Source: a virus. From it: DNA of 23,538 bases. Positions 13,705 through 23,246 of the stretch are shown in pieces. Below the pieces are notes generated by a model, which saw only the letters and a program-made list of their open reading frames with translations, was not told the DNA's origin and did not search any database. Made by a program: the position numbers and the translations under genes. Position 1 is the stretch's first letter; the number at the start of each line of letters is the position of its first letter. The stretch spans positions 1-23,538 of IMG/VR virus record IMGVR_UViG_3300044641_003099; one strand, written 5' to 3'.

Positions 13705-13713
13705 TGGTATAAT
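13705..13713 (+). promoter_or_regulatory. Extended -10 promoter (TGG-TATAAT)
   Basis: TGG precedes TATAAT (13708-13713) with no good -35. The 29-nt leader contains AACGATAAGGGTATATTAAATATG, which is close to the leader of the minus-strand gene at 18229 (AACGAAAGGGTATATTAATG), suggesting a shared leader/ribosome-site design. Confidence 0.6.
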
Positions 13714-13742
13714 ATATATCTAACGATAAGGGTATATTAAAT

Positions 13743-13988
13743 ATGGAACAGTGGGTAAATAGCTACGCCTCATACGTGCTTGTTTTAAGCGGTGCTGCAG
13801 CTATGTTTGTAATTGGCAGGAAGAAAAGATTTGGTTGGCTCTGGTTCATATTTAATGAATTTATGTGGACTGCATATGCTTTGATAACAAAGCAGTACGG
13901 TTTTATTCTTGGCGCTATCCTTTATGGGATAGTAGGTGTTAAATCTTATTTACACTGGTCTAAAAAGGGAATAAACAAGATACATTAA
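13743..13988 (+). CDS. Small multi-helix membrane protein (81 aa)
   Basis: Hydrophobic segments at about 8-24 (YASYVLVLSGAAAMFVIG), 28-46 (RFGWLWFIFNEFMWTAYAL) and 50-70 (QYGFILGAILYGIVGVKSYL) give three short membrane helices. The aromatic pattern (W-L-W-F, N-E-F-M-W) is faintly like half of a PnuC-type transporter, but it is too short to claim this. AAGGG is the ribosome-binding site. Function unknown. Confidence 0.66.
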   Translation: MEQWVNSYASYVLVLSGAAAMFVIGRKKRFGWLWFIFNEFMWTAYALITKQYGFILGAILYGIVGVKSYLHWSKKGINKIH

Positions 13989-16566: not shown

Positions 16567-16911
16567 TTAGAATGAATCTAAGTCCATTATGTATTTGCTA
16601 TCTCTTACTCTTGTTTCTTCAAGGGATTTAATAGTTAGGTTTCTATCCACCGCCCCGTATTTTGCCTCAATCATATCGTTAAGAGCATCAGCCAAAAGCA
16701 ATCCTTCGGATGTATATCCTTTATCCCATTCTGACTTTAATCTAAGGGAATTATATTGGATAATATATCTAACTAGTTCCATTAGCCTGTCTTGTGTATA
16801 CAAGGTATGTTCAGTTGTTAGTACATTAGCCATTACTGCTGGTGAGAAGTTAGCATTATTTAGATAGTCTGTTAGTTTTTCTGCCGCCTTGAATTCGTTC
16901 GCCTTAGCCAT
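16567..16911 (-). CDS. Conserved phage protein of unknown function (114 aa)
   Basis: The helical protein (MAKANEFKAAEKLTDYLNNA, then PAVMANVLTTEHTLYTQDRLMELVRYII and SEGLLLADALNDMIEAKYG) has no Cys or membrane segment. The stretch FSPAVMANVLTTEHTLYTQD...SEGLLLADALND resembles small actinophage proteins I have seen, without function. ATG 16911 is preceded by AACGAAAGG and the GTCAGTGG promoter at 16932. It is the last gene of the minus block, before the terminator at 16513. Confidence 0.72.
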   Translation of the reverse strand: MAKANEFKAAEKLTDYLNNANFSPAVMANVLTTEHTLYTQDRLMELVRYIIQYNSLRLKSEWDKGYTSEGLLLADALNDMIEAKYGAVDRNLTIKSLEETRVRDSKYIMDLDSF

Positions 16912-16931
16912 GAGTTCCGCCTTTCGTTTTG

Positions 16932-16952
16932 ATTATACCATTGACCACTGAC
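16932..16952 (-). promoter_or_regulatory. GTCAGTGG promoter, copy 1
   Basis: Minus strand: GTCAGTGG (16952-16945), 7 bp, TATAAT (16937-16932), with TGG as extended -10. TTTACA 18 bp upstream of the -10 is a fair -35. AACGAAAGG ribosome site follows. Confidence 0.82.
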
Positions 16953-16969
16953 ATTTGTAAATGAAGCGA

Positions 16970-17009
16970 GGACCCTCCCCTTTCCCGTTTCCCACAGAGA
17001 GGAGGATCC
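16970..17009 (-). terminator. Hairpin after the Lsr2-like gene
   Basis: Minus strand GGATCCTCC (17009-17001) pairs with GGAGGGTCC (16978-16970), nine pairs with one G-T, 22-nt loop. It lies 14 nt after the stop; no good T-run, so a weak terminator or 3'-end stabiliser. Confidence 0.45.
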
Positions 17010-17023
17010 CCACACTTAGTTTG

Positions 17024-17176
17024 TTACTTGACGTTCTTCTTGTCTGTGAAGACTACGCCTTCTTGTGCTGCCTTGCTGATAGCTCCTAGAGCTGCAGCTG
17101 AAAAGCGGCCACGCTTGCCCACAGAAATTCCCTGGGTCTTGAGGTACTCACGAGTTGTTGTTGGTGTTGTTGACAT
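17024..17176 (-). CDS. Lsr2 C-terminal-domain-like DNA-binding mini-protein (50 aa)
   Basis: The protein starts MSTTPTTTREYLKTQGISVG and continues KRGRFSAAALGAISKAAQEG. It resembles the Lsr2 DNA-binding domain: 'R-E-(W/Y)-x-(K/R)-x-x-G-x-x-V-x-x-R-G-R-(I/F)-(P/S)-A-x-x-x-x-A', with the AT-hook-like R-G-R at 22-24. Full Lsr2 (about 110 aa) has an N-terminal dimer/oligomer domain; this protein has only the DNA-binding part, so it may bind AT-rich minor grooves without bridging and could counter host Lsr2 silencing. It has its own promoter (17212) with a dyad between -35 and -10. AAAGGATC precedes the ATG. Assignment is from the motif only. Confidence 0.75.
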   Translation of the reverse strand: MSTTPTTTREYLKTQGISVGKRGRFSAAALGAISKAAQEGVVFTDKKNVK

Positions 17177-17211
17177 TAGTTTGATCCTTTCTAGATCGAG
17201 TTGTTATATAT

Positions 17212-17240
17212 ATTATATCCGAATTTCGGGGATTTGTAAA
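17212..17240 (-). promoter_or_regulatory. Promoter of the Lsr2-like gene with spacer dyad
   Basis: Minus strand: TTTACA (17240-17235), 17 bp, TATAAT (17217-17212). The spacer holds CCGAA-A-TTCGG (17229-17219), a perfect 5-bp dyad. It lacks the GTCAGTGG box of its neighbours. The third CGTAAAG-type repeat (17248-17271), containing GCAAAA-T-TTTTGC, lies directly upstream, so autoregulation is plausible. Confidence 0.75.
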
Positions 17241-17286
17241 TAGGGTACGTAAAGCAAAATTTTTGCCCGTGCCCTTAGATTAATGA

Positions 17287-17313
17287 CCGTTATGTCCGAA
17301 TTGTCCATAACGG
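17287..17313 (-). terminator. Hairpin after the 64-aa gene
   Basis: CCGTTATG (17287-17294) and CATAACGG (17306-17313) form a perfect 8-bp stem with an 11-nt loop, TCCGAATTGTC on the plus strand. It lies 13 nt after the stop of the 17326-17520 gene. The downstream tail is not T-rich, so this is a hairpin-only terminator or an operator; part of the loop recurs at 22865. Confidence 0.55.
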
Positions 17314-17325
17314 CCCAACCTATCC

Positions 17326-17520
17326 TTATTTAGTTTTAACTTCTACTTCTTCGATACTGTATGCTTCTATCTTATTTCCTTCGTTGCGAGCAGGAAGTTT
17401 CTTCCAGTCTTTTTTAGGTGTTGCCTCCGCAGCATACCAAGCCTCGTCACGATTCTCTGCAGTTACTACAAGGTAGTACTCCTGAACTACGTCTCCATAG
17501 ATTTTATATTGCTGACTCAT
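17326..17520 (-). CDS. Small phage protein (64 aa)
   Basis: MSQQYKIYGDVVQEYYLVVTAENRDEAWYAAEATPKKDWKKL... is a beta-strand then helix then strand (EAYSIEEVEVKTK) fold. The 'V-x-A-x-n-r-D-E-A-x-x-A' pattern is frequent in small phage proteins without known role and resembles the 51-aa protein at 324. The start overlaps the previous gene's TGA (ATGA). It ends the minus operon that begins near 18274. Confidence 0.66.
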   Translation of the reverse strand: MSQQYKIYGDVVQEYYLVVTAENRDEAWYAAEATPKKDWKKLPARNEGNKIEAYSIEEVEVKTK

Positions 17521-17654
17521 AGTTCCACCTGTTCTATTTTATCTTTAATTAATTTAGCGATAATGTTGTGTGCCTCGATGTTTTCTGTTTCGGACCCACC
17601 CCACAGCAAAGCTTGGGCTTTACTAAGTTGATCGTTTAAGTACTTATCACTCAT
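17517..17654 (-). CDS. Small helical protein (45 aa)
   Basis: ATG 17654 lies in the last codons of the next upstream gene (8-nt overlap) and TGA 17519-17517 overlaps the following ATG. The protein MSDKYLNDQLSKAQALLWGG... NIIAKLIKDKIEQVEL is two helices. It is supported by both coupled overlaps. No family recognised. Confidence 0.6.
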   Translation of the reverse strand: MSDKYLNDQLSKAQALLWGGSETENIEAHNIIAKLIKDKIEQVEL

Positions 17655-17961
17655 CTTCATCTTCGTCCTCCTCCTCTTCATCTTCAGGGTCAACAATGTA
17701 TTCCCTGCTTAACATCCAATCCAAAACTTCTTCGCTATGTTGTTCAGCGCCCCACTCTAGAGAGAAGCCCATTCCAGCCTCTACAGCCTCACACAGGTGG
17801 TCCCACATCTCGTCTTGGGTTGCCTTGGCAACATAGGTGTCATCCTCTAGAATACCGTTGATTGTCGACCATGTCCACAACCAAACTAATGATAGGCCTA
17901 AGTCTGTCTCATCTAGAATCTTTAAACATTCGTTTAGTTTATCTTTATCTTCAGGCTTCAT
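17647..17961 (-). CDS. Acidic conserved phage protein (104 aa)
   Basis: From ATG 17961 (with GGAG 7-8 nt upstream) the protein begins MKPEDKDKLNECLKILDETD. LGLSLVWLWTWSTINGILEDDTYV and WDHLCEAVEAGMGFSLEWGAEQHSEEVLDWML are Trp-rich helices, and it ends in an all-acidic tail (DPEDEEEEDEDEDE). ATG 17979 would add six residues inside the previous gene. The acidic tail could mimic DNA or act as a chaperone-like tail; this is a guess. Confidence 0.65.
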   Translation of the reverse strand: MKPEDKDKLNECLKILDETDLGLSLVWLWTWSTINGILEDDTYVAKATQDEMWDHLCEAVEAGMGFSLEWGAEQHSEEVLDWMLSREYIVDPEDEEEEDEDEDE

Positions 17962-18229
17962 TACGTGCTCCAATCGCAAATGATAACTGATAAGTTAGTT
18001 GATACAGTTCTACTAGCATATCTAGGCGCCCTTCACATTCTGTTCGGACCATAGAATCCATTGCCTCTTCAGACAACTCTTCCTGCTCTAATGCGCTTGC
18101 TAGGTCTTGCTCAGCAATTAACATTAGATTCTTTAGTTCACCGTGCATTATATCTAATCCACTAACACCTGCATTAACCAAACGTTGCAAGTGGGGCGGG
18201 AGCCCAATGTCTTCCATAGTCATATCCAT
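17951..18229 (-). CDS. Helical acidic protein (92 aa)
   Basis: The protein is all helical: LPPHLQRLVNAGVSGLDIMHGEL, then KNLMLIAEQDLASALEQEEL and RLDMLVELYQLTYQLSFAIGARNEA. No Cys cluster or membrane segment is evident. ATG 18229 has AACGAAAGGG 8-9 nt upstream and GTCAGTGG promoter copy 2 before it; it also overlaps the previous TAA (TAATG). No family recognised. Confidence 0.66.
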   Translation of the reverse strand: MDMTMEDIGLPPHLQRLVNAGVSGLDIMHGELKNLMLIAEQDLASALEQEELSEEAMDSMVRTECEGRLDMLVELYQLTYQLSFAIGARNEA

Positions 18230-18435
18230 TAATATACCCTTTCGTTATCAATCATTATATCAGAGGCCACTGACAAAATATGTTCCATAGTATCAATGGC
18301 TCCAGTATAATAAGCATCTGATTCAAAATACTCATCTTCATTTAAAGGTACGTTATTTCTAGCATCTTCTAAATCTTGTTCTAAACTAATCTTATGTATC
18401 TTTAGATACTCCATAAAATGTGATGACTTAGTCAA
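18229..18435 (-). CDS. Hypothetical protein (68 aa), TTG start
   Basis: TTG 18435 has GGAGG six bases upstream and overlaps the previous stop by 8 nt; ATG 18471 would overlap that gene by 44 nt and is less likely. The protein (MTKSSHFMEYLKIHKISLEQDLEDARNN... SDIMIDNERVY) is helical and acidic. Its 3' end carries promoter copy 2, so the last 15 codons double as a regulatory region for the next gene. Confidence 0.6.
   Translation of the reverse strand: MTKSSHFMEYLKIHKISLEQDLEDARNNVPLNEDEYFESDAYYTGAIDTMEHILSVASDIMIDNERVY
18254..18274 (-). promoter_or_regulatory. GTCAGTGG promoter, copy 2 (inside a gene)
   Basis: Minus strand: TTTTGTCAGTGG (core 18274-18267), 7 bp, TATAAT (18259-18254), with TGA extended -10; no -35 match at 17-18 bp. 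It lies in the coding end of the 18229-18435 gene and drives the 92-aa gene. Confidence 0.8.
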
Positions 18436-18601
18436 AGTAACCCTCCGCCCAAAGCCCCTGGAGGAAGTCATTTGTCTTCAACAAACCTTCAGTTAATAAT
18501 GACTTGTCCATTAAATCGGACGGGGTCCTAAGATAGAATAACTTAGCATCATGTACTGAGTTAATCATAGTATCAAGATCATCTTTAGTATAACCTAGCA
18601 T
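18428..18601 (-). CDS. Small helical protein (57 aa)
   Basis: ATG 18601 overlaps the end of the upstream gene by 7 nt; TAA is at 18430-18428. The protein MLGYTKDDLDTMINSVHDAK... LLKTNDFLQGLWAEGYFD is helical. GGAGG precedes the ATG at 5-6 nt (minus ATGGAGGCAATAGAATG). No family recognised. Confidence 0.6.
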   Translation of the reverse strand: MLGYTKDDLDTMINSVHDAKLFYLRTPSDLMDKSLLTEGLLKTNDFLQGLWAEGYFD

Positions 18602-18741
18602 TCTATTGCCTCCATATATTTAATCATAGTATTAAGTGTTATATGAATGTGACAATCACAATCATCTGATGTATCTCTGTCATCAAAATGGATTAAGTTG
18701 TCATCATAGATATAATCAATTAGTTCTTGTGTGGTAATCAT
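18595..18741 (-). CDS. Small acidic Cys/His protein (48 aa)
   Basis: MITTQELIDYIYDDNLIHFD... then DCDCHIHITLNTMIKYMEAIEC, TAG at 18597-18595. DCDCHIH could bind a metal. ATG overlaps the preceding TGA (ATGA), showing coupling. No family recognised. Confidence 0.58.
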   Translation of the reverse strand: MITTQELIDYIYDDNLIHFDDRDTSDDCDCHIHITLNTMIKYMEAIEC

Positions 18742-18950
18742 AGTAAGAATTCATCTCCTTCAATATAGCCATAGTATTCATTGTATGATTGCTTTAAGTT
18801 ATCAGGAGCAAATTGCATGAACTTATATTCAGCATATGCTGAGCCTTCCTCTAAATTAGCATTGTTCCATTGCTCAAAGAGATGTTGCTCAATATCTACT
18901 TGAATTGCTCCAAGAATATGTTCTCCTACTGTATCTGTAAATGCTTCCAT
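18738..18950 (-). CDS. Hypothetical protein (70 aa)
   Basis: It is coupled to the DUF1281-like gene by a 1-nt overlap (TAATG) and to the next gene by ATGA. The protein is acidic and helical (EAFTDTVGEHILGAIQVDIEQHLFEQWNN...) with aromatic residues near the end (YNEYYGYIEGDEF). No family recognised. Confidence 0.62.
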   Translation of the reverse strand: MEAFTDTVGEHILGAIQVDIEQHLFEQWNNANLEEGSAYAEYKFMQFAPDNLKQSYNEYYGYIEGDEFLL

Positions 18951-19684
18951 TATGCTTCCGCCTTTCTATATTCGGGTACTTTAGTGTCTAAGTATATCTT
19001 ATGGGTCTGACAAATTGCTACAGCCTCTAGGTCAGCATTGCCTAGCCAGTTGCAGTTGCCACAGATTTCACCGCAGTCATTGTCGCAGTATTCCATTTGG
19101 TCAGTTGCATCACAATCACGGCACATGTTATCGTATTCTGATTCTGAGATAACTTCACCACGGAGGAATTCCATTTCCCCACCCCAACCTGTTTCTTCTT
19201 CATATGATAAAGTAAATAGTAGATTAGGGTATTGTGCAGATAGTTTAGAGATAGCGCCAAGAGGCCGTGACCATGCAGTGTTAAAGTTGTAATGGACTAC
19301 ATAGTTCTCGCCATTCTCTGCTTCTTCAATAGTTGTATCAGGATACTTATTATCCTCGGCTACAGCAACATCCCACTTGGTTCCCCACTCACGCACATTA
19401 AAGTTGTACCAGTCATTGGTCTCAAACTTCATTGCCTGAGAAAAGTCGGTGGAACGAGGAGGCTGTCCATGATATACCTCATCAGTAATACCAGCATCTC
19501 TATAGTTATAGATATTATGAAAAGCAAAGATAGGATTAACATACTTAGTCTGCTTGACATCATACGATAAATCACCTAATGCAGTAATAGAATAAACAAA
19601 TGGCTTATTCATCTGCTTGATTAAAGATTTTACTTGCTCAGGATTACCTTCTATAGTTAATCCATTAAATACCCAATTTGGCAT
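18950..19684 (-). CDS. DUF1281/YubB-like ferredoxin-fold protein with Cys-rich tail (244 aa)
   Basis: From ATG 19684 the protein begins MPNWVFNGLTIEGNPEQVKS, the hallmark of the DUF1281 (YubB ferredoxin-like) family found on phages and plasmids. Middle motifs FNVREWGTKWDVAVAEDN and SRPLGAISKLSAQYPNLLF also fit (family 'W-G-T-K-W-d' and 'P-p-x-x-x-x-x-x-L-x-x-x-f-P'). A Cys-rich tail at about 188-212 (CRDCDATDQMEYC, CGEICGNC) adds a probable zinc site. The start is set by AACGAAAGG and promoter copy 3; the longer frame to 19768 would run through the promoter. Function unknown. Confidence 0.82.
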   Translation of the reverse strand: MPNWVFNGLTIEGNPEQVKSLIKQMNKPFVYSITALGDLSYDVKQTKYVNPIFAFHNIYNYRDAGITDEVYHGQPPRSTDFSQAMKFETNDWYNFNVREWGTKWDVAVAEDNKYPDTTIEEAENGENYVVHYNFNTAWSRPLGAISKLSAQYPNLLFTLSYEEETGWGGEMEFLRGEVISESEYDNMCRDCDATDQMEYCDNDCGEICGNCNWLGNADLEAVAICQTHKIYLDTKVPEYRKAEA

Positions 19685-19711
19685 TTTATATCCTTTCGTT
19701 GATATGTTCCA

Positions 19712-19732
19712 ATTATATACTAGACCACTGAC
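19712..19732 (-). promoter_or_regulatory. GTCAGTGG promoter, copy 3
   Basis: Minus strand: GTCAGTGG (19732-19725), 7 bp, TATAAT (19717-19712). No -35 or TGn is visible. A perfect dyad (19748-19764) lies 16 bp upstream and may be a second regulatory site. Confidence 0.82.
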
Positions 19733-19747
19733 AAATGGAATAGAATT

Positions 19748-19764
19748 GGCATGTGATACATGCC
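19748..19764. promoter_or_regulatory. Operator-like dyad upstream of promoter copy 3
   Basis: GGCATGT-GAT-ACATGCC is a perfect 7-bp inverted repeat with a 3-bp centre, at about -50 to -65 from the predicted start for the DUF1281-like gene. No similar dyad is seen at the other five copies. Confidence 0.5.
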
Positions 19765-19864
19765 ACATGATTCAGCTTTGTGGTCAAGATCACAGCAAAT
19801 TCCTGGGAAATATATTTGACAGTCGTAAAGACAATATGCTACCCTCATGTCTTTGGGGGCAAAG

Positions 19865-19888
19865 AAAAACCCCCAGCTAACTGGGGGT
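19865..19888 (-). terminator. Intrinsic terminator of the small-RNA unit
   Basis: Minus strand ACCCCCAG (19888-19881), loop TTAG, CTGGGGGT (19876-19869) followed by TTTTCTTTG. A perfect 8-bp GC-rich stem with a T-run makes this the most classical terminator in the window. Confidence 0.9.
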
Positions 19889-19892
19889 CTTG

Positions 19893-20007
19893 CATAATGG
19901 CTGCCTGGATTTCCAACGAAAGAAATAAACCCGCTTTACTTAGCGCCTGGCCCGAAGACTGATAGACGCACCATTATATTTCCTATTAAAACCAGGACCA
20001 GAGTCCT
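19893..20007 (-). ncRNA. Candidate structured small RNA
   Basis: Predicted start at about 20007 from the extended -10 at 20014-20022. The RNA opens with hairpin AGGAC-UCUG-GUCCU. A 9-bp stem (UAUAAUGGU, 19978-19970, with GCCAUUAUG, 19901-19893; seven Watson-Crick pairs and two G-U) closes a multibranch region. Arms inside it are GCGUC/GGCGC and GGGUUU/AAAUCC. The terminator follows 4 nt later. Size and compact fold resemble a regulatory RNA. It does not fit a tRNA (no T-arm) or any riboswitch I recognise. A 12-aa ORF inside could mean a peptide leader instead. Confidence 0.55.
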
Positions 20008-20013
20008 AGTCTA

Positions 20014-20022
20014 ATTATACCA
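20014..20022 (-). promoter_or_regulatory. Extended -10 promoter of the small-RNA unit
   Basis: Minus strand TGG-TATAAT (20022-20014) overlaps the stop codon of the 20015-20380 gene. There is no GTCAGTGG box. The predicted start falls on the first base of the 5' hairpin. Confidence 0.62.
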
Positions 20023-20380
20023 TAACTAGTCGACTGTATTTGTCTACAAATGCCGCTAAGGATAAACTAAATACAACTGTTTCAAGGTCCTCTTCATACA
20101 GTGTAAACGTTTGATTGGCCCAATCAATTACAGGCACCTTGTGCTCATTATCACTAATCTGATTAATGTTAAGGCCCCACGACAAAGCCTGATTCCAATC
20201 TTCACCAATTAAATGAGAGATTGCAATGCGTGTTGCATACTCCTCGTGCTCCCAGCGTGGCTCTGCAGCCTGCACGGCATTTGCTAGTTTTGCTAGCATA
20301 TTATATCCTGCCCAGTGTCCATATAAAAATACTGTATCGCCCTTTTGGTCTTTAAACCCAAAGTTTGCTCTGTCGCCCAT
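20015..20380 (-). CDS. Conserved phage protein MGDRANFGF family (121 aa)
   Basis: MGDRANFGFKDQKGDTVFLYGHWAGYNMLAKLANAV... RWEHEEYATRIAISHLIGEDWNQALSWGLNIN... EHKVPVIDWANQTFTLYEE. This strongly patterned sequence recurs in actinobacteriophages as I recall it, always without known role. YGHWAG and the buried ATRIAISHLIG helix suggest a compact alpha/beta fold. It lies 1 nt after the upstream gene's stop. No Cys pairs or membrane segment. Confidence 0.78.
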   Translation of the reverse strand: MGDRANFGFKDQKGDTVFLYGHWAGYNMLAKLANAVQAAEPRWEHEEYATRIAISHLIGEDWNQALSWGLNINQISDNEHKVPVIDWANQTFTLYEEDLETVVFSLSLAAFVDKYSRLVMV

Positions 20381-20381
20381 T

Positions 20382-20582
20382 TTATTCCGCCGTTTCTAAA
20401 GTAGGTATTGCTGGTTCTTTCTTGTCTAATTCTATCACTTCATAGGCTACCTTGTCTAGGCCTGCCTTGTTTTTATTGTAGTGGTGACCGCAAAAAGCTA
20501 ACTCACCATCTACTAGTTTAACTAGATACATTGCATCTGCTGATCCACATGCATCACATGGAATGAACTCTCTGTCTCTCAT
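20382..20582 (-). CDS. DUF7455-like zinc-finger protein (66 aa)
   Basis: PCDACGSADAMYLVKLVDGELAFCGHHYNKNKAGLDKVAYEVIEL has CxxC (Cys9/Cys12) and C-x-H-H (Cys31, His33, His34), matching the DUF7455-type actinobacterial/phage pattern 'CDrCga.A...v.l.sG.ellFCgHHarkh...L'. A zinc finger of unknown target. The ATG overlaps the previous TGA (ATGA) and a Pro/Glu tail ends it. Confidence 0.75.
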   Translation of the reverse strand: MRDREFIPCDACGSADAMYLVKLVDGELAFCGHHYNKNKAGLDKVAYEVIELDKKEPAIPTLETAE

Positions 20583-20725
20583 AGAGCACCGCCCTCAATC
20601 ATCTCAGAAAGACGGTCAAGAATCCAAGAATCAATATCGTTGATATCAATTTCTGATAACTTCTCCATTATTTCTTCACGGGCAAACTTATACCCGTCAT
20701 CCCAGCCATCCTTATAGTCTGACAT
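20579..20725 (-). CDS. Small acidic protein (48 aa)
   Basis: MSDYKDGWDDGYKFAREEIM... DSWILDRLSEMIEGGAL, TGA 20581-20579, overlapping the next ATG. AAGGAG lies 5-6 nt before ATG 20725. The 'W-D-D-G-Y-K-F-A-R-E-E-I' motif is a frequent one in small phage proteins with two helices. Function unknown. Confidence 0.64.
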   Translation of the reverse strand: MSDYKDGWDDGYKFAREEIMEKLSEIDINDIDSWILDRLSEMIEGGAL

Positions 20726-20734
20726 AATTTCTCC

Positions 20735-20938
20735 TTAGTAACCTGTGGTTTCGTATTCTGATACATAAGATTCAGTTAAGTTGTACTTATCTCTAAGCCT
20801 ACTTACTTTCTCAATACTACCAGTTCCAATGTTGAATGTCAATGCAGACATTGCTTGTGGGTCGAGCCCTGTGATTTGTGCATCCCAATAGGCCCTCTCC
20901 ATGGAGAGCCTATCAGGAGCGGTGAGTTCAAAGTACAT
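20735..20938 (-). CDS. Small conserved phage protein (67 aa)
   Basis: MYFELTAPDRLSMERAYWDAQITGLDP...TFNIGTGSIEKVSRLRDKYNLTESYVSEYETTGY: a helix, GTGS turn and second helix, like a small phage HTH-like fold with a recognition-like helix SIEKVSRLRDKYN; this is only a resemblance. ATG overlaps the previous TAA (TAATG). Confidence 0.65.
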   Translation of the reverse strand: MYFELTAPDRLSMERAYWDAQITGLDPQAMSALTFNIGTGSIEKVSRLRDKYNLTESYVSEYETTGY

Positions 20939-21354
20939 TAGTCCACCTCTACTGAATCGATAGATGATGACATGTATGTAATAGGCTCATCATAAGATAC
21001 TGTGTCAAAGTCTGTTTCGTGAATTGCATTGATAGCAGACTCCTCGTCACGAGCATTAACTGTAACTGAATATTGTACAGTTACGGTTAACTCAAATTCA
21101 TTTGTTAGTTCAAATCCACAAATGCTTGAAATCTCTTCTGCTTGAAACTCAGTCAATGAGTCGTCATCAAGACCTTCTAATGTGAATACCTTCATGTCGT
21201 CACGTAACTTGTTTAATGTTCCTGCAGTTGCGTAGTCACGTTGTGTTACACGCTGGATGTGCTCTTCTAATTGCACAATGCGGGCCTTATTCTCAACTAA
21301 CTGTGACTCAAGAAATTCCCGTGTCAAGTAGTGATTATCTGTTGTTGTTTCCAT
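20938..21354 (-). CDS. Short isoform (138 aa) of the nested gene
   Basis: ATG 21354 begins METTTDNHYLTREFLESQLV. It is served by AACGAAAGAGG and promoter copy 4 (21386-21406), and it shares frame and stop with the 206-aa form. Residues 10-40 look like a coiled coil, followed by a linker and a VTVQYSVTVNARDEESAINAIH region that resembles the 'V-x-A-x-d-e-x-x-A' fold of other small phage proteins here. It is the more likely main product if copy 4 is the stronger promoter. Confidence 0.72.
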   Translation of the reverse strand: METTTDNHYLTREFLESQLVENKARIVQLEEHIQRVTQRDYATAGTLNKLRDDMKVFTLEGLDDDSLTEFQAEEISSICGFELTNEFELTVTVQYSVTVNARDEESAINAIHETDFDTVSYDEPITYMSSSIDSVEVD

Positions 21355-21558
21355 TGTTTCCTCTTTCGTTTGGTTTGTTGGTGCAATTGTAGCATGCTCC
21401 ACTGACAATAATGTGGTCTTGCGTCCGCATGGGCATGTGAGCGTTGTCACACCTGAAGGAAAGCCAAATCCATCAGATGATGTTAGTTCTATTAATGAAT
21501 CGCATTCATCTGGGTCACAGACAAAGGTGTACTTACTTGATACTAGTTCGTTGGTCAT
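20938..21558 (-). CDS. Long isoform: zinc-ribbon domain fused to helical/beta domain (206 aa)
   Basis: From leaderless ATG 21558 (7 nt after TATAAT of promoter copy 5) the frame reads MTNELVSSKYTFVCDPDECDSLIELTSSDG...TLTCPCGRKTTLLSVEHATI, a zinc-ribbon-like domain with C-x4-C and CPCG, then NQTKEETMETTTDN and the whole downstream protein without a stop. The same frame has a second strong start at ATG 21354, with its own promoter (copy 4) and ribosome site AACGAAAGAGG. So the locus probably makes two nested proteins, 206 and 138 aa. The region after Met69 has a coiled-coil helix (FLESQLVENKARIVQLEEHI) and a beta-rich end (LTVTVQYSVTVNARDEESAI). Function unknown. Confidence 0.68.
   Translation of the reverse strand: MTNELVSSKYTFVCDPDECDSLIELTSSDGFGFPSGVTTLTCPCGRKTTLLSVEHATIAPTNQTKEETMETTTDNHYLTREFLESQLVENKARIVQLEEHIQRVTQRDYATAGTLNKLRDDMKVFTLEGLDDDSLTEFQAEEISSICGFELTNEFELTVTVQYSVTVNARDEESAINAIHETDFDTVSYDEPITYMSSSIDSVEVD
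21386..21406 (-). promoter_or_regulatory. GTCAGTGG promoter, copy 4 (internal)
   Basis: Minus strand: TTGTCAGTGG (core 21406-21399), 7 bp, TACAAT (21391-21386), with TGC extended -10. It lies inside the coding region of the 206-aa frame and precedes ATG 21354. Confidence 0.8.
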
Positions 21559-21565
21559 AAAGAGA

Positions 21566-21586
21566 ATTATACAGGACCCCACTGAC
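21566..21586 (-). promoter_or_regulatory. GTCAGTGG promoter, copy 5 (leaderless)
   Basis: Minus strand: GTCAGTGG (21586-21579), 7 bp, TATAAT (21571-21566), then 7 nt to ATG 21558. Unlike the other copies there is no AACGAAAGG leader, so the transcript should be leaderless. Confidence 0.82.
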
Positions 21587-21659
21587 ATTTACAATAGATT
21601 CCAGGGATTTTCTTTTGTGACTCGTAACACACTTTTTCTCCCCTTAGCATTGCGGGCCC

Positions 21660-21736
21660 TGGCGATCCATAACGGACTTGAACCGTCGACCTCTACCGTG
21701 ACAGGGTAGCGCTCTAACCAACTGAGCTAATGGACC
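21660..21736 (-). tRNA. tRNA-Asp (GTC), CCA encoded
   Basis: The minus strand folds into a full cloverleaf: acceptor GGTCCAT/ATGGATC (one G-T), D-arm GCTC/GAGC, anticodon stem CTACC/GGTAG with loop CTGTCAC (anticodon GTC), T-arm GACGG-TTCAAGT-CCGTT, discriminator G and CCA at 21662-21660. G73, the anticodon and the rest fit tRNA-Asp. It follows DUF932 and its terminator by 3 nt. Asp codons are common in the acidic phage proteins, but a decoding benefit is only suggested. Confidence 0.95.
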
Positions 21737-21739
21737 TAG

Positions 21740-21771
21740 AAAAAATTGTGAGCAGTTTTTATTCATGCTCA
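21740..21771 (-). terminator. Intrinsic terminator between DUF932 and tRNA-Asp
   Basis: Minus strand TGAGCA (21771-21766), 11-nt loop, TGCTCA (21754-21749), then CAATTTTTT. The tRNA begins 3 nt downstream, so the tRNA is made by read-through or from another start. Confidence 0.75.
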
Positions 21772-21783
21772 GGAATTTATTTA

Positions 21784-22791
21784 TTAAAACGCAGAAATTA
21801 ATTTCTTAATTTTATTTTTTTCTGCGGTAAGAATTGGGTCAAACCCTGATGCACCAGCCATAAGTGTTTCAGAATTTCCGCGACCTGAACGATAATAGTC
21901 AAGGCGTTCAGTTAGTGCATTGAACGCACCCCACTTAGTTCCCTTGATGTTAGCGTTAGTTGGTGAGTTATGATAAAGATTGTCAAGAAGGACAACCTTA
22001 TTCTCCCACTTAGTTAGCGCAACCTTAGCAGAATCTTTATCTGGCTTAGGATAAATTGTCTGAATTAACTTTGAGAATTCAGCATCAGTAATTGATTGAG
22101 AATAAAGAGCCTGAGCCTCTTTCTCGAATTCATCAAAGTATCCGAGAGCAAGCCCAAGAGTTTCGCGGGCTACTTGAATGCGACCTTCAACAGATTGCGT
22201 GTGACGAATCTTGAAAGATTGCTTAGCATTACGCATTGCAAGATTCAATGTGTTTTGGCAAACTACACGAACAGGGGTAACTGCAGCCTGAACCGCAACA
22301 GACCCGTCATGTGATGTCCAAACAATTAGATACAACTTGGTTGCATCATTTGCACCTTGTGGGTCAAGCACCATTGTGCGAGGAATATCCACAGTGCCGA
22401 AAACAACCTTACCGCTACGAAGTGAGCCAGCAGATTCCCAACGGCAATCAGCATTGGCATCATGAATTGCATCTGCGAATGCAAACAATTCTTCATTCTG
22501 CACAGGCTTGTAACGCTTTCCAACAGTAGCAAGAACATCAGTTCCGCTATTGAATGGGTTGTCACGAATAACTAATTGAGCATTAGATACATCATTCCAT
22601 GTATCTGAAATGTGGTCAGTTAGTGGAGACAAGCGAACATTCCAGTTGGAAAGTTTTGCCTCATCTAACATCATTTGAGTTGTAACATCTTCATCTTGTG
22701 TAAAGATGCGATTTGCAAGGTTGTGCCATGCAGGTGCGCCACGAAGTGCGAATGCAACTTCGCCATTTTCCATTTCTAGATTATGAGCCAT
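21784..22791 (-). CDS. DUF932 phage/plasmid-like protein (335 aa)
   Basis: The protein starts MAHNLEMENGEVAFALRGAPAWHNL and keeps the DUF932 (TIGR03299-like) landmarks: PAWHNLG-type start, WNVRLSPL, KRYKPVQNEELFAFADAI, GSLRSGKVVFGTVDIP, DPQGANDATKLYLIVWTSHDGS, and TPVRVVCQNTLNLAMR. The C-terminal part includes KWGAFNALTERLDYYRSGRG. The family is widely found in phages and plasmids, with a proposed role near DNA replication or in anti-restriction; the function is not established. The start has AACGAAAGG and GTCAGTGG promoter copy 6; a terminator and the tRNA gene follow. Confidence 0.92.
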   Translation of the reverse strand: MAHNLEMENGEVAFALRGAPAWHNLANRIFTQDEDVTTQMMLDEAKLSNWNVRLSPLTDHISDTWNDVSNAQLVIRDNPFNSGTDVLATVGKRYKPVQNEELFAFADAIHDANADCRWESAGSLRSGKVVFGTVDIPRTMVLDPQGANDATKLYLIVWTSHDGSVAVQAAVTPVRVVCQNTLNLAMRNAKQSFKIRHTQSVEGRIQVARETLGLALGYFDEFEKEAQALYSQSITDAEFSKLIQTIYPKPDKDSAKVALTKWENKVVLLDNLYHNSPTNANIKGTKWGAFNALTERLDYYRSGRGNSETLMAGASGFDPILTAEKNKIKKLISAF

Positions 22792-22822
22792 TTTTTACCT
22801 TTCGTTTGTTTGATTAGTTGTA

Positions 22823-22843
22823 AGTATAACAGACCCCACTGAC
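22823..22843 (-). promoter_or_regulatory. GTCAGTGG promoter, copy 6
   Basis: Minus strand: GTCAGTGG (22843-22836), 7 bp, TATACT (22828-22823), with TGT extended -10 and TAGACA at 17 bp as a fair -35. The leader ends in AACGAAAGG before ATG 22791. Confidence 0.83.
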
Positions 22844-22864
22844 ATTGTCTATGATTAGTTACAA

Positions 22865-22883
22865 TATGTCCGAATTGATCCAT
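22865..22883. repeat. TATGTCCGAATTG repeat (second copy)
   Basis: TATGTCCGAATTG followed by ATCCAT here and by TCCAT at 17291-17308; the first 13 bases are exact. Both lie in intergenic DNA of the minus block. The CCGAA...TTCGG dyad of the Lsr2-like promoter (17219-17229) shares CCGAAT. Confidence 0.6.
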
Positions 22884-22905
22884 GTGATTAATCTCACAAA
22901 AATCC

Positions 22906-22947
22906 AGGGGTTATCCACAAGTGGTCGTAACCCTGTGGATAACCCCT
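22906..22947. promoter_or_regulatory. Long inverted repeat with two perfect DnaA boxes
   Basis: AGGGGTTATCCACA (22906-22919) and TGTGGATAACCCCT (22934-22947) are perfect 14-bp arms with a 14-bp centre. Each arm contains TTATCCACA (22911-22919; reverse at 22934-22942), the consensus DnaA box. On the minus strand the hairpin is followed by GGATTTTTG, so it might also terminate the 22992 gene. Either a replication/DnaA-binding site or a terminator; both readings are open. Confidence 0.6.
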
Positions 22948-22962
22948 TACCTTTACGGGCCA

Positions 22963-22978
22963 GCTGCACATATGCAGC
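22963..22978. repeat. Short hairpin GCTGCA-CATA-TGCAGC
   Basis: A perfect 6-bp stem with a 4-nt loop and no T-run, between the stop of the 22992 gene and the DnaA-box repeat. It may be a 3'-end hairpin or part of the same control region. Confidence 0.45.
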
Positions 22979-22991
22979 CAGTGTTAGATCT

Positions 22992-23246
22992 TTACAGACC
23001 TAACTCATCCCTGGTTAATTGATTCTTTCGATTGAAATTAATAACTTCGGCGGGAAGATAAAGAGCAGTAGTCTTAGTCTTCTTTAAAGTATCATAGACA
23101 TAAGCACGTACATCACCAAAGAAATTTCCTCTATTAGAGAATGCTAATTCAGTTAAGTATTCCTTATCAACACCTTGCTCTGAATAGATTGTTAAATCAT
23201 TACTCTTGTTTGCATCATAGATTTCTACTCTGAAACGATTTTTCAT
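22992..23246 (-). CDS. Hypothetical protein (84 aa)
   Basis: MKNRFRVEIYDANKSNDLTI... with YLTELAFSNRGNFFGDVRAYVYD and KKTKTTALYLPAEVINFNRKN: beta-rich and basic. AAAGG precedes ATG 23246 by 8 nt. No family recognised; the strand-helix-strand pattern resembles small phage single-domain proteins. Confidence 0.66.
   Translation of the reverse strand: MKNRFRVEIYDANKSNDLTIYSEQGVDKEYLTELAFSNRGNFFGDVRAYVYDTLKKTKTTALYLPAEVINFNRKNQLTRDELGL

Follow-up and report, generated by a model that had tools for sequence, protein, structure and literature searches.

Features of the locus

The DNA analysed here, referred to as the window, is a stretch of 23,538 nt that covers positions 1 to 23,538 of the virus record IMGVR_UViG_3300044641_003099 and includes a WhiB gene. 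Between the gene for a DUF932 protein and the next reading frame lies a dyad whose arms, 22906-22919 (AGGGGTTATCCACA) and 22934-22947 (TGTGGATAACCCCT), are perfect complements. The features of this region are as follows.

16567-23246, minus strand: part of a presumed early-gene block, containing all six TGTCAG promoters of the window
22992-23246, minus strand: 84-aa open reading frame upstream of the cassette, without a family match
22963-22978: dyad GCTGCA-CATA-TGCAGC, between the 84-aa reading frame and the cassette
22906-22947: dyad of 14-bp arms with a 14-nt loop, the loop containing CGTAA (TTACG on the minus strand)
22934-22942, minus strand: DnaA box 1, TTATCCACA, promoter-distal, an exact consensus match
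22911-22919, plus strand: DnaA box 2, TTATCCACA, in opposite orientation to box 1 (gap of 14, starts 23 bp apart)
22883-22898, minus strand: CRP/GlxR-like palindrome TGTGAGATTAATCACA, whose start lies 44 nt downstream of that of box 1
22823-22851, minus strand: predicted early promoter of DUF932 (TAGACA, TGTCAGTGGGGTCTGT, TATACT), 10/12 consensus positions, with TG before the -10 element
21784-22791, minus strand: DUF932 gene, 335 aa, phrog_1221 (Pfam E=3e-56), the first gene after the predicted promoter

The consensus of the DnaA box is TTWTNCACA, and both boxes in the window fit this 9-mer. The original prediction of two inverted, perfect DnaA boxes in a 14-bp dyad between DUF932 and the next gene was confirmed, and the two exact copies of TTATCCACA in the perfect arms are the only ones in the window. 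The number of boxes is not in excess, as TTATNCACA occurs twice where 1.79 occurrences are expected and 54 of 100 shuffled sequences reach two. What rises above chance is instead the arrangement of the boxes, which is reflected in the fold scores of the dyad (z-scores of -4.9 as RNA and -4.8 as DNA, with none of 200 shuffles folding equally well), together with their conservation in relatives. The dyad is absent from a terminator scan of the window that was restricted to loops of 3-8 nt. The position of the neighboring dyad, GCTGCA-CATA-TGCAGC, would be fitting for the end of the upstream transcript.

Around DUF932, the elements follow each other in the order box pair, CRP-like palindrome, TGTCAG-N-TATAMT promoter, and gene. 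The consensus of the CRP/GlxR site is TGTGA-N6-TCACA, and TGTGAGATTAATCACA fits it. This pattern is found twice in the window against an expectation of 0.06, and the second copy (21436-21451) lies within an open reading frame. A general promoter scan of the window was not above chance overall (32 matches vs. 27.6). TGTCAG-N-TATAMT occurs six times against 0.04 expected, always on the minus strand. In these six promoters (16932-22844), TGTCAG stands 10 nt ahead of TATAMT, where no sigma element is expected, and it may be an operator or activator site.

Conservation upstream of DUF932 in close relatives

Relatives were fetched with the DUF932 protein of the window, and the best 80 of 268 loci, with identities of 91-100%, were compared. 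Including the window, these 81 loci yielded 48 distinct sequences upstream of DUF932, a count that is anchored on the protein and not on the box. Both boxes are kept in all 48. Box 1 reads TTATCCACA in 44 sequences and TTTTCCACA in four, and box 2 reads TTATCCACA in 24, TTTTCCACA in 15, and ATATCCACA in nine. Box 2 is inverted in 44/48 sequences, with a gap of 14 in 43 and of 15 in one, and direct with a gap of 12 in the other four. The palindrome TGTGA-N6-TCACA is present in 47 sequences and shortened to GTGA-N6-TCAC in the remaining one. All 48 carry the TGTCAG promoter, 97 or 98 nt from the start of box 1, as well as TTAMG within 14 nt after box 1. Conserved boxes at fixed places relative to the promoter, as expected of a DnaA-regulated promoter, are thus found in every one of these sequences.

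Within 72 distinct inverted cassettes, the arms show no mismatch in three, one in five, two or three among the 14 positions in 63, and four in one. The conserved feature is the box pair, not the hairpin. Because the arms drift and because flipping of box 2 abolishes the hairpin while the box itself stays, the dyad does not appear to be kept as a terminator hairpin. Arms that vary freely without the boxes, which the original prediction had regarded as favoring a plain terminator, were not encountered; the arms drift and box 2 may turn around, but the boxes stay. A chance pair of boxes was ruled out as well, since the pair is conserved in relatives and confined to one block, even though the number of boxes in the window is at the level of chance.

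A further set of 178 distinct cassettes was picked by a pattern that fixes the box cores and limits the gaps, so that frequencies within it are conditional on that pattern. It comprises 101 cassettes with a direct pair and a gap of 12 (D12) and 67 with an inverted pair and a gap of 14 (I14). TTAMG lies between the boxes, at the place of 22920-22933 in the window, in 165/178 of these cassettes and may be a third contact. The spacing from palindrome to promoter is mainly 48, 52/53, or 63/64 nt; these spacings do not all fall on one helical face, and a uniform helical phasing of the palindrome to the promoter is therefore not supported. Just before box 1 there is a GC stem, with several different sequences, of at least 4 bp in 131/178 cassettes and at least 5 bp in 94/178, which would be a better terminator candidate for the upstream gene than the dyad. 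The words CGACACGCC and GAGCGTCTCA recur between the box pair and the promoter in some cassettes (L083, L086). No nucleotide relatives of the intergenic region were found among named phages.

Repeated cassettes in a presumed early block

Fifteen large related records of 67-117 kb, some of which may be fragments, together provide 1.41 Mb of sequence. TTWTCCACA occurs 119 times in these records vs. 20 times for the same pattern read backwards. The boxes are concentrated in the 6 kb upstream of DUF932, as these regions (87 kb of the 1.41 Mb) hold 88 of the 119, a 43-fold enrichment over the rest. Each block holds two to eight boxes, mostly TTATCCACA. Exact pairs with boxes 21-23 bp apart number 41, with one to four in each record and at least two in 13 of the 15 records; all lie in the 6 kb before DUF932, and none was listed elsewhere in the 15 records. 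The original prediction had suggested looking for further DnaA boxes and a DNA-unwinding region nearby. The further boxes exist as these one to four pairs per large record, but they are found at promoters and not at a single origin with an unwinding region.

The cassettes that were inspected mostly follow one plan, in which the box pair is followed by the palindrome, the promoter, and a small gene. The orders of direct (D) and inverted (I) cassettes upstream of DUF932 include DI, IDDI, DDDI, and, at four loci, ID. At these four loci a direct cassette stands before DUF932, with an inverted one next in line, and it looks as if cassettes were exchanged between units. Some contigs end within 5 kb of DUF932, not all at one place, and these ends may stem from the repetition of cassettes or from the collapse of a terminal repeat.

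In two large relatives, a comparison of a 15-kb block with the rest of the record gave 8:0 and 7:0 for palindromes and 14:1 and 16:1 for TGTCAG promoters (14/15 and 16/17). In one of the two, coding in the 15-kb block is mostly on the plus strand, and nearly all other bins are minus-coded. The block is presumed to be early because of this layout of strands and promoters and because, in a relative, it lies within the terminal repeat.

Eight loci contain a tight cluster in which two copies of TTATCCACA 2-3 nt apart are followed by CCTGTGGATTTTTT, beside AT-rich DNA (L091 at 13710-13760, L092 at 14395, L322, L356, L373, L375, L390, and L399). Such a box cluster downstream of DUF932 looks like a replication origin.

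Candidate readers of the sites

The 15 phage records, which may be fragments, yielded no match to the DNA-binding domain of DnaA. The helix-turn-helix domain of CRP exceeded the cut-off in none of them, and five matches were weak (E 0.009-0.016). A DnaA or CRP encoded by the phage was rejected as the reader, as neither was over the cut-off in these records.

Candidate hosts were sought among small actinobacteria, for which 29 genomes of 1.0-1.5 Mb were selected by size from 296 Actinomycetes genomes; 18 of the 29 were used for the tests of CRP and the palindrome. All 29 contain TTATCCACA within the 2.4-3.5 kb surrounding the DnaA domain, and the variant TTTTCCACA is found near dnaA in candidate hosts too. 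In a search of 84,980 bacterial and archaeal genomes, the direct pair with the palindrome turned up once, in the dnaA-dnaN intergenic region of a Corynebacterium, where the direct spacing of 21 bp is the same as in the phage D12 pair. The occurrence of the same element in bacterial chromosomes was rejected on this single match. In viral contigs, the same pattern gave at least 120 stretches vs. none with the boxes reversed. The direct pair was present in two of the 296 Actinomycetes genomes, one being the same Corynebacterium. Broad pattern scans returned at least 218 loci; among the matches listed, the gap peaked at 12 (33 direct pairs) and 14 (18 inverted pairs), other gaps were common, and the palindrome was near 12 D12, five I14, and six other-gap pairs.

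Host DnaA is the likely reader of the boxes, since no DnaA DNA-binding domain was detected in the phage records, the box occurs near dnaA in small actinobacteria, the Corynebacterium match has the phage spacing, and the pattern is in excess in viral contigs. These hosts are candidates only. A gene of the CRP family is present in all 18 candidate host genomes tested, and the exact TGTGA-N6-TCACA occurred in 2/18 vs. 4/18 for a reversed control. The assignment of the palindrome to CRP is weak, and less sure than that of the boxes to DnaA.

Distant relatives and phage kinship

A second scan, centered on a Streptomyces homolog of DUF932, gave 80 loci. Of these, 63 were examined and 17 were left out (71-100% identity, in records of 131-134 kb). 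The upstream stretches of the 63 distant loci were at most 400 nt long, with some shorter and some near-duplicates. An I14 pair and the promoter, without the palindrome, were found at 14 loci. At 13 of these 14, box 1 is 64-65 nt from TGTCAG, compared with 97-98 nt in the close relatives, so that the pair lies 32-33 bp nearer, or about three helical turns. Five further loci show differently arranged boxes, at least one each, and 44 have no box in the stretch of at most 400 nt examined. Thus part of the lineage has the pair, which is independent of the palindrome. Among other viral contigs, four (L335, L341, L410, and L428) have tandem copies of TTATCCACA, an imperfect CRP-like palindrome, and CGACACGCC before a different promoter-like stretch.

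The DUF932 protein of the window shares at best 51% identity with a named phage, and Streptomyces phages come first. In a related 115-kb record that shares DUF932, Streptomyces phages likewise provide the best matches for the head protease (46%) and Pol III alpha (57%). The lineage may thereby be akin to the Stanwilliamsviridae and their kin, Streptomyces phages such as Jay2Jay and BillNye, which have a homologous DUF932 and, by comparison with the related record, a homologous Pol III alpha and head protease. This 115-kb record encodes Pol III alpha, a DnaB-type helicase, primase, SSB, and a UvsX-like recombinase, and for this reason its replisome is largely its own.

In Jay2Jay, DUF932 lies inside a terminal repeat of 11,438 bp, and terminal repeats of about 11 kb are described for BE1 phages in PMC5764925. 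Jay2Jay and Riptide differ from the lineage of the window in that their DUF932 lacks the upstream box pair, with no box in roughly 8 kb around the gene. Their pair sits elsewhere. In Jay2Jay an inverted TTATCCACA pair is present at 122,001-122,031 (L475 3001-3031), 63-93 bp before the right terminal repeat. Both boxes at this place are intact in seven of nine Streptomyces Samistivirus phages, including Jay2Jay, while the first box is changed in Navo and Paradiddles.

Proposed mechanism and alternative explanations

The most probable reading, with a probability of about 0.6, is that host DnaA controls early promoters of the phage, perhaps together with a protein of the CRP family. The dyad would then be the upstream regulatory element of an early promoter of the form TGTCAG-N10-TATAMT, and its boxes would act as a pair of fixed geometry, either direct with a gap of 12 or inverted with a gap of 14. 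If the transcript of DUF932 starts about 7 nt after the -10 element, as estimated, the centers of the boxes would fall near -122 and -99 and that of the palindrome near -75. Host DnaA would bind the pair, the CRP-family protein would be bound between the pair and RNA polymerase, and the two would jointly activate early transcription. With the cassette repeated before further early genes, the early program may answer to host DnaA and perhaps to the cAMP state. Activation is the most likely sign of the effect, although it is less sure than DnaA control itself; it is preferred to blocking because all of the sites lie upstream of the promoter and none lies on it. The spread of distances from palindrome to promoter speaks against a simple activator.

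Several other explanations have to be weighed against DnaA control. It is improbable that the pairs form a DnaA-dependent origin of phage replication, at which they would load DnaA to open nearby DNA. The exact boxes have a geometry also found in the Corynebacterium dnaA-dnaN region, some relatives possess, about 6-7 kb downstream of DUF932, the tight cluster next to AT-rich DNA, and the Samistivirus phages have their inverted pair close to the right terminal repeat. However, the records contain one to four scattered two-box sites instead of one cluster, and when exact boxes are counted the window site holds two only, rather than an oriC-type cluster next to an unwinding region. Moreover, at a distance of some 45-55 kb from the block the related record encodes Pol III alpha, DnaB-type helicase, primase, and SSB of its own, and the GC skew of two large relatives tracks the gene strand without pointing to a separate origin. 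Slightly less probable still is a sink, in which the boxes titrate DnaA so that host initiation ceases as phage DNA replicates. For E. coli, PMC5835720 describes titration by DnaA boxes as established, and the two to eight boxes in each block would suit it, but a sink needs no fixed spacing, palindrome, or promoter placement, and around DUF932 all three are conserved. Titration might arise as a by-product. The original prediction that the site recruits or titrates host DnaA is therefore favored in its first half, as the boxes are kept while arms drift and box 2 flips, and titration retains a small share. Under DnaA control, titration or an origin role could also be added functions.

The resemblance to DnaA boxes could also be incidental if another host or phage protein reads the TTWTCCACA pair, an explanation about as improbable as the sink. 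The TTAMG that follows box 1 in 48/48 sequences would not be needed by a plain pair of DnaA boxes. Nevertheless, the sequence equals the DnaA consensus, candidate hosts carry its TTTTCCACA variant near dnaA, and box 2 tolerates inversion, as it would if a protein monomer bound each box. Far less credible is an intrinsic terminator of the upstream 84-aa gene whose arms resemble DnaA boxes by chance. The hairpin in the window is strong and has a TTTTT run on the minus strand 4 nt beyond its stem, and the median RNA fold of the inverted cores, -21.8 kcal/mol, is strong as well. Relatives with direct repeats cannot form the hairpin, however, and of the 72 inverted cassettes 69 have imperfect arms and eight a T-rich tail, while the GC stem before box 1 is the better candidate. 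With the boxes kept where the hairpin is lost, the terminator is largely refuted, and the suggestion in the original prediction that the site may also terminate transcription is not supported. A checkpoint during entry, by analogy with the injection stop signal of T5, is equally far-fetched. DUF932 of Jay2Jay does lie within the terminal repeat, with a DnaA-box pair beside it, but within the block the cassettes recur from one promoter to the next, and the terminal repeat that was seen belongs to this relative, not to the lineage of the window.

Going beyond DnaA control as such, it is tentatively suggested, and rather doubtful, that this actinophage lineage wires its early program to both host DnaA, as a measure of replication and growth, and a CRP-family protein, as a measure of nutrient state, through a cassette copied to one to four early units and exchanged between them, which would gate infection by the cell cycle. 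If host DnaA drives these promoters, the phages would sense the cell's replication state before they commit. The cassettes would then be a natural reporter of DnaA activity in actinobacteria, and DnaA control of phage transcription would shift from a special case in lambda to a recurring design. As the cassettes are repeated and tolerate flipping, the geometry of the DnaA pair can be tested directly, and a culturable starting point is offered by those Streptomyces relatives in which a pair is conserved.

Comparison with known systems

PMC8203912 describes DnaA as an activator or repressor that stimulates transcription at ori-lambda of phage lambda, where it is proposed to contact RNA polymerase. 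The likeness would be that host DnaA acts on phage transcription. Unlike ori-lambda, the candidate sites here are one to four strictly spaced pairs, mostly with a CRP-like site, before presumed early genes of an actinophage-like lineage. The E. coli nrdAB promoter and other DnaA-regulated bacterial promoters are similar in having a few boxes at a promoter that DnaA can activate or repress (PMC8203912), but here the genes are those of a phage, the gap is fixed at 12 or 14 nt, and a palindrome lies between the pair and the promoter. The dnaA-dnaN region of Corynebacterium sp. ES2730-CONJ (L318) shares the TTATCCACA pair with its 21-bp direct spacing. There it is one of several origin boxes, whereas here the pairs are isolated at promoters. 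The injection stop signal of T5, described in PMC13250531 as containing repeats, palindromes, and DnaA boxes, is alike in that the part of the genome entering first is associated with DnaA boxes and inverted repeats, but it is a single stop region and not a series of repeated promoter elements.

A literature search made mostly without subscription journals found no description of DnaA-box pairs at early promoters of actinophages, which leaves absence unproven. DnaA as a regulator and its role in lambda transcription were already known; what appears to be new here, as a variant of this theme, is a repeated, flip-tolerant cassette with a DnaA-box pair at phage promoters.
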